This document shows positions 9,778-64,000 of a stretch of DNA of 64,000 bases, one piece after another. Under the pieces are notes generated by a model that was not told the origin of the DNA, ran no database searches, and saw only the letters and a program-made list of their open reading frames with translations. A program made the translations under genes and the position numbers. The DNA is taken from positions 29,385 through 93,384 of the forward strand of contig JAFIHF010000021.1 of assembly GCA_017848855.1 (NCBI GenBank), read 5' to 3'. Source of the stretch: Rhodanobacter denitrificans. Lineage in GTDB: Bacteria > Pseudomonadota > Gammaproteobacteria > Xanthomonadales > Rhodanobacteraceae. Position 1 is the stretch's first letter. Every line of letters starts with the position of its first letter.

Positions 9778-10120
9778 CCCCTCTCCCGCGAGCGGGAGAG
9801 GGGTTGGGGAGAGGGGCTCTGTTTTCGCGTTGTCGCTGGATTCAAAGCGGTTTCGAGCGCCTGCCGGCGCCCGAGTTACTTCTCCTTTGCTTGTCCAAAA
9901 GAGAAGTAACCAAGAGGAAACGACACCCCGCGGCGCCGCTCTCCGGGCATCCTGCCCTGCGAGTCCGTGAGTCGGGGCCGGGCTTTTCGAGCGGGCTCCT
10001 GCCCGCGCGAAAAGGCGTTGCCATCCCTGGCAACGCCCGCTGCGCGGCCTTGTCGTCCCCGCCTCACCGTCGCCGAGGGGCCCCGGGAAAAGCAGCGCGC
10101 TCCAAGCGCGCAGAAGCAAC
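9778..10120 (+). repeat. Composite multi-hairpin repeat, copy 1 (forward)
   Basis: This fills the gap after rpoD. In order it has: an A-type hairpin (CTCTCCCGCG/AGCGGGAGAG plus TTGGGGAGAGGGG, 9778-9818); a B hairpin whose arms GTTACTTCTC and GAGAAGTAAC flank the loop GCTTGTCC near 9875-9911; a C hairpin at 9983-10014 with a TCCT loop and an internal A-G mismatch; and a GCGCGC/GCGCGC D hairpin near 10095-10112. The same order of elements recurs at 33343-33739. Open frames across it are by-products of its base composition. Confidence 0.8.
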
Positions 10121-17994: not shown

Positions 17995-20900
17995 ATGCAA
18001 GCGGATGCCTCCCCGCTGAGCGGCTTCCATCCCGCCGTCGCCGCCTGGTTCGACAGCCGCTTCGCCGCGCCCACCGCGGCGCAGGCGCAGGCGTGGCCGG
18101 CGATCCGCGCGGGCGGCCACGTGCTGGTGGCCGCGCCCACCGGCTCGGGCAAGACGCTCACCGCCTTCCTCGCCGCGATCGACGCGCTGGTGTGCGAGGG
18201 CGTGGCGCACGGCGGCGCGCTGCCGGACGAGACGCGGGTGGTCTACGTGTCACCGCTGAAGGCGCTGTCGAACGACATCCACGTCAACCTGGAAGAGCCG
18301 CTGGCAGGCATCCGTGCCGAACTGGAAAAGCTGGCCTTGCCCGAGGTGGCGATCCGCACCGCCGTGCGCACCGGCGACACGCCGCAGACCGAGCGCGCGT
18401 GGATGCGCAAGACGCCGCCGCACATCCTGGTGACCACGCCGGAGTCGCTGTACATCCTGCTCGGCTCCGCCTCCGGCCGCGAGATGCTGAAGAACACGCG
18501 CAGCGTGATCGTGGACGAGATCCACGCCGTGGCCGGCAGCAAGCGCGGTGCGCACCTGGCGCTGACGCTGGAGCGGCTGGAGGCGCTGTGCCAGCGGCGG
18601 CTGCAGCGGATCGGGTTGTCGGCGACGCAGAAGCCCATCGAAGAAGTGGCCGACTTTCTGGTCGGCACAACATCACCCTCTCCCCTTTGGGGTACGCGGG
18701 GAGCGGCCATGGATGGCCGCGGCTCTGAGGAGCGAGGAGAGGGTGGGGGTGAGGGGACAACCTCGCCGCAGTCTCCATCGGAGCGCACTCTTGGCGACGT
18801 TCCCGCGAGCACCCGCCCCTCACCCTGCCCTCTCCCCGACGGGGAGAGGGAAAACATCGCGATCATCGACACGGGCCACACGCGCAAGCGCGACCTCGCC
18901 CTCGAACTCACCCCGCTGCCGCTCGAAGCGGTGATGTCGAACGACGCCTGGGCGCTGCTCTACGATCGCCTCGCCCAGCTGGTGCAGGCGCATCGCACCA
19001 CGCTGGTGTTCGTCAACACGCGGCGGCTGGCCGAGCGGGTGGCGCGGCACCTGTCCGAGCGGCTGGGCAAGCAGGCCGTGGCCGCACACCACGGCAGCCT
19101 CGCCAAAGAGCAACGCCTCGACGCCGAGCAGCGGCTGAAGCGCGGCGAGCTGGCGGTGCTGGTGGCCACCGCCTCGCTGGAGCTGGGCATCGACATCGGC
19201 GACGTGGACCTGGTCTGCCAGCTCGGTTCGCCGCGTTCCATCGCGGCTTTCCTGCAGCGCGCGGGGCGCTCCGGCCACCATATCGGCGGCACGCCGAAGG
19301 CGCGGCTGTTTCCCACCACGCGCGACGACCTGGTGGAATGCGCGGCCCTGCTCGACGCCGTGCGCCGCGGTGAACTCGATGCGCTGGTGCAGCCGCCGCA
19401 ACCGCTGGACGTGCTGGCGCAGCAGCTGGTGGCCGAGGTGGCCTGCCGCGAGTGGGACGAGGATGCGCTGTACGCGCTGGTGCGCGGCGCGTATCCGTAT
19501 CGCGCGCTGTCGCGGGCGGACTTCGACGCCGTGGTGCGCATGCTGACCGAGGGCTTCACCACCCGCCGCGGCGCGCGTGCGGCCTACCTGCATCGCGACG
19601 CCGTGCATCGCCGCCTGCGCGCGCGGCGCGGCGCGCGGCTGGTGGCGCTCACCTCCGGCGGCGCGATCCCCGACACCGCCGACTACCTCGTGGTGCTGGA
19701 GCCGCAAGGCACCGTGGTCGGCTCGGTGCACGAGGACTTCGCGGTGGAGAGCCTCGCCGGCGACATCTTCCAGCTCGGCAACACCAGCTACCGCATCCTG
19801 CGCGTGGAGCGTGACCGCGTGCGCGTGGAAGACGCCCACGGCGTGCCGCCCAGCATCCCGTTCTGGCTGGGCGAGGCGCCGGGGCGCACCGACGAACTCT
19901 CGTTCGCGGTGTCGCGGCTGCGCGAGGAGGTCGATGCTCTGCTCCCCTCTCCCCCCGGGAGAGGGGTCGGGGGTGAGGGTTCGGTGCTCGCCGAACCTTC
20001 CAGCACAGCCGAACCCTCACCCCCAACCCCTCCCCCGGAGGGGGAGGGGAGTAAAGCCCGTGCATTGGCGTGGCTGCGCGACGAACTCGGCCTCGGCGAA
20101 GCCGCCGCGCAACAATTGCTCGACTACCTCGCCAGCGCGAAGGCCGCACTCGGCGTGCTGCCCACGCAATCCACCCTGGTGTTCGAGCGCTTCTTCGACG
20201 AATCCGGCGGCACCCAGCTCGTCATCCACGCGCCGTTCGGCAGCCGCATCAACCGCGCCTGGGGGCTGGCGCTGCGCAAGCGCTTCTGCCGCCAGTTCAA
20301 CTTCGAGCTGCAGGCCGCGGCCACCGAGGACGCGATCGTGCTGTCGCTTTCCACCAGCCACAGCTTTCCGCTGGAGGAAGTCGCGCGCTACCTGCACTCG
20401 AACACGGCCGAGCATGTGTTGATCCAGGCCCTGCTCGACGCGCCGCTGTTCCCCGCGCGCTGGCGCTGGAACGCGGTCACCGCGCTGGCGCTGCCACGCT
20501 TCGCCGGCGGCAGGAAGGTGCCGCCGCAGCTGCAGCGCATGAAGAGCGAGGACCTGCTCGCCGCGGTGTTCCCCGACCAGGTCGCCTGCCTCGAAAACAT
20601 CGTGGGCGAGCGGCAGATTCCCGACCACCCGCTGGTGGCACAGACCCTGCACGACTGCCTGCGCGAGGCGATGGACGTGGACGGCCTGCTGCGCCTGCTG
20701 CGGCGACTGGAAGATGGCGCGATCCGCCTCGTCGCGCGCGACCTCGCCGCGCCCAGCCCGCTCGCCGGCGCGGTGCTCAACGCCGCGCCCTACGCCTTCC
20801 TCGACGACGCGCCGCTGGAGGAACGCCGCACCCGCGCCGTGCGCCAGGATGTTCCCGCCAACGCCGGCGACCTCGGCCGGCTCGATCCCGACGCCATCGC

Positions 20901-22884
20901 TGCGGTGCGCGCGGAGGCATGGCCCGCGGTGCGCAGCGCGGACGAGATGCACGAGGCGCTGGATGCGCTGGGTGGCATCACGGTGGACGAAGCGGCGGCG
21001 AACGAGGGCTGGAGCGACAAGCTGGAAAAGCTGGCGCACGACCAGCGCGCCACGCGTCTTCAACTCCCTCTCCCCCTGCTCATGGCAGGGGGAGAGGGTC
21101 GGGGTGAGGGGGGAGCTCTTGTTTCTACGACAACAGGGCGAGGCAAGGCCCCCCTCACCCCACCCTCTCCCCCAACAAAGTTGGGGGAGAGGGAGAAAAG
21201 CCAGGTCTGGACCAGCGCCGAAAAACTGCCGCTATGGCAAGCCGTGCATCCCGACGCTGCGTTGAAGCCCGCCATCGCCGCGCCCGCCGAATACGCCGCG
21301 CAAGCCTGGACCCGCGAAGACGCGCTGCGCGAGCTGGTGCGCGGCCGACTGCTGGGCCTGGGGCCGGTGACGGTGGCGGCGCTGGCCGCATCGCTGGGCG
21401 TGGCGCCGGCCGAGGTGGACGCCGCGCTGCTGCGCCTGCAAGGCGAGGGCTACGTGATCCAGGGCCGCTTCGATCCCGCGCTCGACGCGACGCAGTGGTG
21501 CGAGCGCCACCTGCTGGCGCGCATCCACCGCTACACGCTGGGCCGGTTGCGGCGCGAGATCGAGCCGGTGAGCCGGCGCGAGCTGATGCGCTTCCTGCTC
21601 GACTGGCAGCACGCGAGTCCCGCCACGCAGCTGCGCGGCCCCGATGCGCTGCCGGCCGTGCTGGCGCAGCTGGAGGGCTACGAAGCGGCGGCCGGCGCGT
21701 GGGAAGCAGAAATCCTGCCCGCACGCATCGCCGACTATTCGGCGAGCTGGCTGGATGAATTGTGCCGCGCCGGTCGCATCGCCTGGAGCCGCCTGCGCGC
21801 GGGCGGCGGCAGCGGCCCGGTGCGCGCCACGCCGATCGTGCTGCTGCCGCGCCGGCAATTGGCCGTCTGGACGGCCATCGCGCAGGCCTCCGAGCCGCAG
21901 GACAGCCTGCTGTCCTCGCGCGCGCAGGCGGTGGCCGACGCGCTGCGCGAACACGGCGCGCTGTTCTTCGACGAGCTGCAGTCCAGCGTGCACCTGCTGC
22001 GCACCGAGCTGGAGGATGCGCTGGGCGAACTGGTCGCCGCCGGCCGCGTCAGCTCGGACAGCTTCGCCGGCCTGCGCGCCCTGCTGCTGCCCGCGGCGAA
22101 GCGCGAGGCGCCGCGGCACCGGCGCATACGGCGGCATGTGTTCGGCGGGATCGAGGATGCGGGGCGCTGGTCGCTCGTCCGTTCTTCCCTTCTCCCCGTT
22201 GGGGAGACAAATCGGCAGGACAGCCGATTTGCACGGCGCGAGCCGCCCGAAGGGCGAGGGCCAGGGATGGCCCGAGTGCAGGTGCCCGGCAGAGCCTGCC
22301 CCGGACTTGATCCGGGGGCGGATGAGGGGCGGGTGCTCGCGGAAGCACAGCTTGATGCGGACAGTGGCAAGAATGTCCCCTCACCCCAACCCTCTCCCCA
22401 AAGGGGAGAGGGAGAACATCTGGAGCACATTGCGCGCGCCCTGCTCGCCCGCTACGGCGTGGTGTTCTGGCAGTTGCTGGAGCGCGAGGCGCCGTGGCTG
22501 CCGCGCTGGCGCGAGTTGTCGCGGGTGTATCGGCGGCTGGAGGCGCGCGGCGAGATTCGCGGGGGGCGTTTCGTGGAAGGGCTGGTGGGCGAGCAGTTCG
22601 CCTTGCCGGAGGCGATCGCGCCGCTGCGCGCGATCCGCCAGCGCGCGGACGAGGGCGCGCTGGTCGTGGTGGGCGGTTGCGATCCGTTGAATCTGGTGGG
22701 CAGCGTGCTGGCCGGCGACAAGGTGCCCGCGGTGCCGGGCGCGCGCGTGCTCTACCGCGACGGCCTGCCGCTGGCGGCGCAGGTGGCGGGCAAGTTCGTG
22801 CCGCTGGCGGAGCTGTCCGCCGCGGAGACGCAGGCGGCGCGGCAGGCGTTGCAGTTGCGCGGCGCGCTGCGCCTCACAGCTTGA
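17995..22884 (+). CDS. lhr: Lhr-family ATP-dependent helicase carrying four in-frame repeat insertions
   Basis: The 1629-residue product has superfamily 2 motifs: I APTGSGKT (about 46-53), II DEIH (174-177), III SAT (209-211), [19 protein letters not shown] and [10 protein letters not shown] (about 421). The winged-helix and large C-terminal region of Lhr follow. Lhr unwinds DNA or RNA-DNA hybrids during repair. Four low-complexity Pro/Gly/Glu-rich stretches, at about residues 224-287, 648-688, 1022-1070 and 1395-1475, are translated copies of the CTCTCCCC repeat family. Each falls in a linker, and conserved sequence resumes in frame after each (for example [14 protein letters not shown]). 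Without them the length would be about 1400, near family norm. The stop overlaps the convergent nagX-like gene by 11 bp. Confidence 0.9.
18664..18857. repeat. In-frame palindromic repeat insertion 1 in lhr
   Basis: Opens with CCCTCTCCCC near 18670 and ends CTCTCCCCGACGGGGAGAGG near 18850. Inside are GGAGAGGGTGGGGGTGAGGGG and, in reverse orientation, GCGAGCACCCGCCCCTCACC. The left hairpin arm has been split by extra sequence containing GCGGCCATGGATGGCCGC. It adds about 64 residues between FLVG and IAIIDTGH, just after helicase motif III, without a stop. Confidence 0.85.
19938..20055. repeat. In-frame palindromic repeat insertion 2 in lhr
   Basis: The left end is CCCCTCTCCCCCCGGGAGAG then GGTCGGGGGTGAGGG, and the right end is CCCTCACCCCCAACCCCTCC then CCCGGAGGGGGAGGGG. 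The centre GTTCGGTGCTCGCCGAAC is also palindromic. It adds about 39 residues between LREEVDAL and [10 protein letters not shown], in a linker of the winged-helix region. Confidence 0.85.
21060..21206. repeat. In-frame palindromic repeat insertion 3 in lhr
   Basis: Starts with CTCCCTCTCCCCCTGCTCAT, continuing GGCAGGGGGAGAGGGTCGGG, and ends with CCCCTCACCCCACCCTCTCC, continuing CCCAACAAAGTTGGGGGAGA. The two ends are inverted copies of each other. About 48 residues are added between RATRL and [11 protein letters not shown]. Confidence 0.85.
22180..22422. repeat. In-frame palindromic repeat insertion 4 in lhr
   Basis: This is the longest of the four. The left end is CTTCTCCCCGTTGGGGAGA and the right end is CCCCTCACCCCAACCCTCTC followed by CCCAAAGGGGAGAGGG. 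The conserved core GAGGGGCGGGTGCTCGCGG is at about 22324-22342. An extra block between (CAAATCGGCAGGACAGCCGA and neighbours) holds further small palindromes. It adds about 80 residues between AGRWSLVR and [12 protein letters not shown]. Confidence 0.85.
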
Positions 22885-23960: not shown

Positions 23961-24036
23961 GTAGGAGCGCACCCTGTGCGCGAATGCTTTTGCTCCGATC
24001 GGCGCCAGAGCATTCGCGCACAGGGTGCGCTCCTAC
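23961..24036. repeat. GTAG-type REP pair (BIME) 1
   Basis: GTAGGAGCGCACCCTGTGCG at 23961-23980 is the inverted copy of the sequence ending in CTAC at 24036, around a 20-odd-base spacer. Each arm also contains its own small palindrome (GCGCACCCTGTGCGC). The GTAG start is the hallmark of REP elements mobilised by RAYT transposases in Stenotrophomonas and Pseudomonas. It lies between the GH20 and nagX-like genes and could trim or attenuate the shared transcript. Confidence 0.85.
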
Positions 24037-30696: not shown

Positions 30697-30764
30697 GTAG
30701 GAGCGCACCCTGTGCGCGATCAAGCTTTCCGCAAGAGCCGTTCGCGCACAGGGTGCGCTCCTAC
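30697..30764. repeat. GTAG-type REP pair (BIME) 2
   Basis: GTAGGAGCGCACCCTGTGCG starts at 30697 and its inverted copy ends CTCCTAC at 30764. It has the same arms as the pair at 23961-24036 but a different spacer. It lies inside the divergent control region between the kinase and permease genes, between the two operator-like palindromes. Confidence 0.85.
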
Positions 30765-33342: not shown

Positions 33343-33739
33343 TCCCTCTCCCCCCGTCGGGGAGAGGGTGGGGTGAGGGGCGAGTGCTCGCGACAGCCTT
33401 GCTTTTCTGTCGTCGCTCTATGGGGAAAAGGCTGCTGCTCTTGTGCACGCTTGGCAAGCGACAAAGCAGTTTCGTGCGCCTGCCGGCGCCCGAGCTACTT
33501 CTCTTTTGCTTGTCCAAAAGAGAAGTAGCCAAGAGAAAACGACACCCCGATGGCGCGCCCTCCGCCCATCCATGGGCTCCGGGTGCGCGGGCGGGTGGCG
33601 GGGTTTTTCGACGGGACTCCTGTCCCGGCGAAAAACTGGCCCGCATCCGTGCGAGCCATCCTGTCGGACTTTCCTCCACCCGCCCGCCGCGCCATAGGGG
33701 CCCCGGAAGAGCAGCGCGCTCCCAGCGCGCAGAAGCAAC
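33343..33739 (+). repeat. Composite multi-hairpin repeat, copy 3 (forward)
   Basis: Same order as copy 1. The A element is at 33343-33395 (CTCTCCCCCCGTCGGGGAGA then GTGGGGTGAGGGGCGAGTGC). The B hairpin has arms GCTACTTCTCTTTT and AAAAGAGAAGTAGC around GCTTGTCC near 33494-33529. The C hairpin is at 33603-33636 with the TCCT loop and the A-G internal mismatch, and the D hairpin GCGCGC/GCGCGC is near 33714-33730. An extra A-like palindrome (CCCTCCCCTGCGTGCAGGGG, 33768-33787) follows. No gene is supported between 33329 and 34279. Confidence 0.8.
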
Positions 33740-40950: not shown

Positions 40951-41084
40951 TCCCTCTCCCCTCCGGGGAGAGGGTTGGGGAGAGGGGCGGGTGCTCGCGG
41001 TACCGTTTCTTTGGAACGCGCTTCGATGTAATTCGTCGCGAGATTGACCCCTCACCTCAATCCTCTCCCCGGAGGGGAGAGGAG
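40951..41084. repeat. Complete A-type palindromic repeat between xerC and hslV
   Basis: The left end is CCCTCTCCCCTCCGGGGAGA then GGGTTGGGGAGAGGGG, followed by the core CGGGTGCTCGCGG. The right end is CCCCTCACCTCAATCCTCTC then CCCGGAGGGGAGAGG. This intact intergenic copy gives the template for the four in-frame insertions in lhr. It leaves only about 80 bp before hslV for a promoter. Confidence 0.88.
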
Positions 41085-63810: not shown

Positions 63811-64000
63811 TTTCCGGGACGGGTGCTCGCGAGAACCATTGGATTCCGCGCCTTGGCTCGCCTGCCGCAGCGCGCTTTTCCCCTCTCCCACTGGTGGGAG
63901 AGGGGTTGGGGGAGAGGGGCTTTTGCCCTCGCGCTTCCGCAAGGAACAAGGCGGTTTCGGACGCCTGCCGGCGCCCGAGTCACTTCTCTTTGCTGGCCCA
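63811..64000 (+). repeat. Composite multi-hairpin repeat, copy 5 (forward, cut by window end)
   Basis: CGGGTGCTCGCGAG (63822-63835), then the A hairpin CTCTCCCACTGGTGGGAGAG (63883-63902) with GGGTTGGGGGAGAGGGG, the GCCTGCCGGCGCCCGAG linker, and the left B arm GTCACTTCTCTTTGCTGGCC. The window ends inside the B hairpin. The stretch 63666-63810 shows no gene. Confidence 0.75.

Follow-up and report, generated by a model that had tools for sequence, protein, structure and literature searches.

The gene lhr, which encodes the large helicase-related protein, a DNA-repair helicase, carries palindromic repeat DNA at four places within its coding sequence in a 64,000-nucleotide stretch of Rhodanobacter denitrificans contig JAFIHF010000021.1 (hereafter the window). 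These inserts are copies of a high-copy palindromic repeat that probably entered lhr and were kept since they lie in flexible inter-domain linkers with an open reading frame. An earlier note on the same DNA, made from its letters alone, had placed four repeat segments in linkers of this gene and described them as open in the coding frame. Both statements were confirmed, as the gene is one open frame of 1629 amino acids, all four segments are stop-free in that frame, and each is flanked by two Pfam domains. The domain order is DEAD, Helicase_C, WH_Lhr, DEAD_assoc, WH3_Lhr and WH4_Lhr, and the DNA at the four sites is that of the CTCTCCCC/GGGGAGAG repeat. Aligning 106 Lhr proteins gave the site boundaries, which include some native linker. 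The features of the gene, in window coordinates, are the following.

17995 to 22884, plus strand: lhr, called from the open reading frame and Pfam.
18667 to 18882, plus strand: site S1, a repeat dimer, amino acids 225-296, between DEAD (amino acids 27-216) and Helicase_C (amino acids 325-427).
18703 to 18720, plus strand: palindrome GCGGCCATGGATGGCCGC, inside the left hairpin of S1.
19933 to 20058, plus strand: site S2, a repeat dimer, amino acids 647-688, between WH_Lhr (amino acids 455-618) and DEAD_assoc (amino acids 722-924).
21040 to 21213, plus strand: site S3, a repeat dimer, amino acids 1016-1073, between DEAD_assoc and WH3_Lhr (amino acids 1192-1266).
22177 to 22419, plus strand: site S4, a repeat dimer that contains further nested palindromes, amino acids 1395-1475, between WH3_Lhr and WH4_Lhr (amino acids 1474-1554).
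22208 to 22288, plus strand: element F, nested in S4.
22299 to 22317, plus strand: palindrome CCCCGGACTTGATCCGGGG, nested in S4.

The inserted DNA is a multi-copy repeat. In the window, CTCTCCCC occurs 23 times compared with 2.2 expected from 100 shuffles, the largest shuffle giving 7. The core CCCTCACCCNNNCCCTCTCCC has 109 exact matches in the same genome and 0 in the reversed control. Because allowing two mismatches yielded 185 matches in the genome and 132 in the reversed control, counts were restricted to exact matches. The commonest form of the repeat is CCCCTCACCCC[AG][AG]CCCTCTCCCC followed by a return arm, according to a column consensus of 99 half-elements that is partly fixed by the collecting pattern used. 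No GTAG or CGTC tag is present on the main CTCTCCCC family in that consensus. The core was also found in 61 of 299 sampled Pseudomonadota genomes, covering 34 of 154 genera, and is therefore not lineage-specific. Composite copies resembling S1, with a nested palindrome, occur at three further loci of the R. denitrificans genome (L219, L222 and L216).

The four sites of the window protein measure 72, 42, 58 and 81 amino acids, while the median lengths of S1 to S4 among relatives are 20, 10, 17 and 19 amino acids when unoccupied and 65, 43, 44 and 58.5 when occupied. The extra length reported by the earlier note is thus borne out, although its figure of about 230 residues comes down to approximately 190. 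The inserts are predicted from the open frame to be part of the Lhr product. Alignment of a solved Lhr (7lhl) to the window protein breaks at S1-S4 and at one further point. We also modelled two Lhr fragments with AlphaFold, using 30-sequence alignments (mean predicted local distance difference test score, pLDDT, of 64). Stretches with pLDDT <50, at residues 223-281 and 653-678 of the N fragment and residues 132-165 and 498-570 of the C fragment, span most of all four inserts.

To follow the sites through related species, 119 lhr loci were reduced to 106 by removal of duplicates. Alignment with the Lhr proteins of relatives, by which the earlier note had expected insertions to be recognizable, finds the same four sites filled or empty across the 106 proteins. 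Of the 106 genes, 52 have a repeat motif in at least one of the four sites, and five have motifs in all four (L001, L035, L036, L039 and L110). Nearly all of this signal falls in a 68-tip clade (51 of 68 genes; 103 of 272 sites). Outside the clade, which served as a false-positive control, a single site of 152 was scored (S2 of L153). The motif scoring is loose at its edges, such that the S2 calls of L153 and L172, both in 15-amino-acid linkers, are doubtful, and a degenerate S1 insert in L033 was scored empty. Short S1 segments in L037, L038, L131 and L140 resemble, by eye, leftovers of in-frame dimer deletions. Lineages free of these repeats can carry long inserts of other kinds in these positions, with S2 reaching 79 amino acids in Paraburkholderia and 88 in Pseudoxanthomonas, indicating that the sites are tolerant linkers. 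The S1 insert of L031, with long C and G runs and some Ns, is probably an assembly artefact.

The same site can be occupied by different repeat families. Scored by motif, the CTCTCCCC family occupies S1 in 41 genes and S3 in 21, the CTCCCCCTGC family occupies S1 in 3 and S3 in 1, and a GTAG-type repetitive extragenic palindrome (REP) occupies S3 in 5 (L060, L110, L119, L133 and L140). The GTAG-type REP also occupies S2 of L039. This second family does carry the GTAG tag (GTAGGAGCGCACC... at S3 of L060, L110 and L119) and is itself multi-copy, with 142 exact matches in the R. denitrificans genome and a presence in 8 of 37 genomes. Even the sister species L036 and L040 (support 0.96) have different families at S2.

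Reading frames vary in a similar manner. The peptide phase of GGGGTGAGG was GEG in 42 cases, GVR in 8 (all at S1) and a stop in 0; where the motif follows a hairpin end (n=45), the counts were 38 GEG and 7 GVR. Across species, left-arm motifs are read in two frames and the right-arm motif in all three. Thus, no single peptide is kept. The S1 DNA of L042, L113 and L141 is 77-81% similar to element F, which lies within the window's S4, and uses a different reading frame.

These observations bear on the proposal that the inserts have a function, either as peptides or as mRNA hairpins tuning lhr expression, which we consider unlikely. What speaks for it is the presence of repeats at these sites in many species, a ratio of nonsynonymous to synonymous substitution rates (dN/dS) kept below 1 in many insert pairs, and the very stable RNA folds of S2 and S3. 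S2 folds as a single long stem of both arms (-98.5 kcal/mol; z score of -10.4 relative to shuffles) and S3 forms a stem from its inner heads with two hairpins around it (-105.5 kcal/mol; z of -9.5), while the four single arms of S1 and S4 gave z of -3.2, -3.0, -1.35 and -2.9. However, a required peptide or hairpin is difficult to reconcile with a frame and family that vary between species, or with the repeat-free genes: 54 of 106 have no motif at any site, and 17 of these belong to the 68-tip clade.

A more serious alternative to repeated new insertion is that the clade's ancestor already had one insertion per site, and that loss in some species and homogenisation with genomic copies through gene conversion came afterwards. 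We give this account somewhat less than an even chance; it is compatible with the entry and retention of repeats proposed above, and both can hold together. In its favor, the same linkers are used across genera and the best-scoring matches of S2, S3 and S4 of the window are the orthologous inserts of other species. Also in its favor, the synonymous rate (dS) in some pairs is lower in the insert than in the core (0.195 versus 0.708 for L112-L138), and over 40 bp the right arm of S4 matches other genomic copies (L217 and L194) without a difference. Against it, a given site can hold unrelated families in different species, and the sister species above differ. Unexpectedly, S1 of the window finds its best match in the S3 insert of a Dyella gene (L122), through the nested palindrome. 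On the core tree, the minimum numbers of state changes for S1 to S4 are 18, 6, 15 and 17, compared with shuffled means of 20.1, 9.5, 21.5 and 18.9 (minima of 15, 6, 14 and 14). Because the changes at S1 and S4 are close to the shuffled means, presence at these two sites looks hardly more clustered than chance, which speaks against inheritance, whereas S2 and S3 look more inherited. Judging from these comparisons, new insertion seems to be accompanied by old descent, by exchange and by homogenisation with copies in the genome. Target-site duplications were sought by eye at the lhr sites, where the linkers are too diverged to judge.

The inserts evolve differently from the protein around them. 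In all 41 pairs compared, dN/dS was higher in the insert (0.39-1.04) than in the core (0.05-0.24); the pairs were chosen, share species and are not independent, and the insert segments contain native linker. In some pairs, substitutions in the insert are spread over codon positions more evenly than in the core (10, 10 and 12 for S3 of L001-L036). The core values indicate purifying selection, in agreement with the earlier description of lhr as a conserved gene, and argue against its decay. We find it hardly credible that the gene is decaying, that the segments are spliced out as inteins or introns, or that the open frame is a sequencing artefact. What can be cited for such accounts is that lhr is split over two open frames in 2 of the 119 loci (L146 and L172), both from metagenome assemblies. 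Against them, the window gene and each of the 38 relatives first examined have one main open frame, there is no intein domain among the Pfam matches of the window Lhr, and an Rfam scan of the window at gathering threshold gave one match, a tRNA, and no intron family. Repeat-bearing lhr genes are found in many assemblies, one of them titled a complete genome (L124, CP007444.1), ruling out an error of one assembly; the earlier note had raised sequencing errors against its own reading.

That note had further suggested a repeat family selected to stay open in a frame. Every insert seen is indeed open, and a first test on 88 copies (4.76 versus 5.27 and 5.08) was biased by a collecting pattern that itself fixes TGA in one frame; in the other five frames, copies were more open than shuffles in four and less open in one. 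We therefore refer to 93 copies from the same genome, outside lhr and the other host-gene loci, that were collected by hairpin alone. These had 4.33 of six frames open on average, compared with 4.43 for shuffles and 4.57 for random window pieces, and 179 of 200 shuffle sets were at least as open as the copies. Selection of the repeat for translatability is thus very improbable.

Retention in genes extends beyond lhr. DNA around 100 of the 109 exact core places was examined and gave 88 clusters, of which 7 are enclosed by an open frame whose two flanks show coding signal: lhr has two, and five other genes have one each. The remaining 81 lack such an enclosing frame, a number that includes 4 too near a contig end to judge. 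We take the five other hosts, recognized without a family search, to be mfd, ppc, an lpd-like gene, ribD and an ABC-F ATPase gene. In the mfd-like gene, three tandem in-frame copies place 151 amino acids between the anchors (L081/L234, contig C1 of assembly G000, ~195.6-196.1 kb), where relatives have 4-42 amino acids. Over 30 loci per gene, the R. denitrificans genome included, motifs occur at the homologous position in 9 for the lpd-like gene (this genome and 8 relatives), 7 for ppc, 5 for ribD (two being places in one genome), 2 for mfd (one more locus being cut off at the site) and 2 for ABC-F. The lpd-like position is the linker joining the lipoyl and dehydrogenase parts (L187/L294, L295-L298, L300, L304, L305 and L309). 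The pattern is therefore wider than one gene and one family, comprising at least six genes and several families, and lhr is the richest host found, not the sole one.

We propose that repeat copies would land widely in genes and be removed by selection where they disrupt the frame or the fold, such that the remaining in-frame linker copies could represent survivorship. On this scheme the frame would be constrained and the peptide hardly, with no particular sequence required of it, and inserts could afterwards drift, take nested elements, be swapped or shrink by in-frame deletion. Several observations weigh against this proposal. Four inserts are many for one 4.9-kb gene, and lhr has 2 of the 7 intragenic core-pattern clusters; tolerance alone may not explain everything. 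Any linker would be expected to show raised dN/dS. Many insert pairs have an excess of third-position substitutions (14, 11 and 25 for S1 of L138-L139), so that weak constraint may act on the peptide. The AlphaFold models are mediocre, with low scores in other stretches too, and hence disorder of the inserts is weak evidence. Lastly, S2 of L128 and S3 of L146, which belong to other branches, resemble those of the window, and old descent or exchange fits this as well as repeated insertion does. A broader version, which we advance tentatively and hold to be rather less probable than its negation, is that linkers of repair and housekeeping genes in Rhodanobacteraceae are continually rebuilt from abundant palindromic repeats, with several families and frames gained, swapped, nested and lost, and with lhr as a preferred landing gene. 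If true, linker rebuilding would mean that repeat DNA keeps supplying proteins with new disordered sequence.

Palindromic elements inside protein genes of Rickettsia (Rickettsia palindromic elements, RPE) were reportedly described by Ogata, Claverie and colleagues. The likeness drawn by the earlier note holds, since here too multi-copy palindromic DNA also lies in frame in genes that stay intact. The present case differs in its host, in having four copies in one gene, in the several families per site and in the use of more than one frame; its sequence is probably different as well, the likeness being one of behaviour. RPE are described as palindromic elements within protein genes in PMC3733652, which treats intragenic GTAG- and CGTC-tagged REPs. 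These are in frame, many are dimers, and they encode 20-30 amino acids and up to 82. The same paper reports that many host genes act in DNA synthesis and repair, that REPs occur at about the same recB site in X. campestris and X. oryzae, and suggests neutrality of REPs in linkers. In-frame intragenic REPs are thus already known. The repeats described here resemble them as inverted dimers, by the S2 and S3 folds, and differ in that the main CTCTCCCC family is untagged, the second family at S3 being GTAG-tagged. By name, 2 of the 6 host genes found here are DNA-repair genes, which fits the reported bias, six genes being too few for a test. The main text of PMC3733652 does not contain CTCTCCCC, GGGGAGAG, Rhodanobacter or Dyella, and we did not see in it four sites of one gene followed through a set such as the 106 genes here. 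Relative to the parts of the cited papers considered, the new elements are the untagged family, the presence of four sites in a single gene, and the cross-species record of differing families, nesting and frame change.

Enterobacterial RU-1 to RU-3 are small mobile sequences with open frames that form part of annotated genes (PMC2759123, as far as its available text goes); the likeness is that of short mobile-like repeats in genes, and both repeats and hosts differ. The host gene here encodes a bacterial Lhr with a C-terminal extension, as in PMC7437997 and PMC10953399, whose abstract-level text does not mention repeat inserts. The peptide GEGRGEG and other peptide or DNA strings of the repeat had no match in open-access literature, print as a whole lying outside that scope, and CCCTCTCCCC combined with palindrome and repeat terms returned one unrelated paper on adeno-associated virus integration.

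Together, the Lhr genes show the four protein sites in dozens of naturally occurring states, from empty through occupancy by one or another family to nesting and partial deletion, and named cultured strains belong to the lineage. Among the cultured species, Dyella jiangningensis has repeats in its lhr at S1, S3 and S4. The question is whether protein-embedded palindromic repeats survive by linker tolerance, or whether some genes, such as those for DNA repair, attract or profit from them, the latter being a speculation made in PMC3733652. With these site states in a cultured lineage, that question becomes testable.

As to how the repeats spread, a REP-associated tyrosine transposase (RAYT) was considered as the driver and is not favored by co-occurrence. 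Y1_Tnp, a family wider than RAYT, occurs in 8 of 13 genomes with at least 10 core matches and in 15 of 24 with fewer, and genome G021 has 94 core matches and zero Y1_Tnp; these counts show no co-occurrence of Y1_Tnp with repeat-rich genomes, and whether such genes adjoin repeats was not examined. In assembly G000, a repeat copy lies within ~2 kb, mostly a few hundred bases, of the ends of contigs C26, C31, C40, C48, C50 and C55, and copies are possibly undercounted for this reason. The intergenic copy that the earlier note took for the consensus does exist; it is a variant, and so not the commonest form in the genome. Two inverted GTAG-type REP dimers lie elsewhere in the window, at 23961-24036 and 30697-30764. 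Further copies outside lhr, listed without strand, are the following.

40951 to 41084: intergenic variant dimer of the same family, with left head GGGGAGAGGGG and right arm CCCCTCACCTCAAT.
33344 to 33380: single-arm copy of the same family.
9778 to 9816: single-hairpin copy of a related subtype, found by eye.
63880 to 63919: single-hairpin copy of a related subtype, found by eye.

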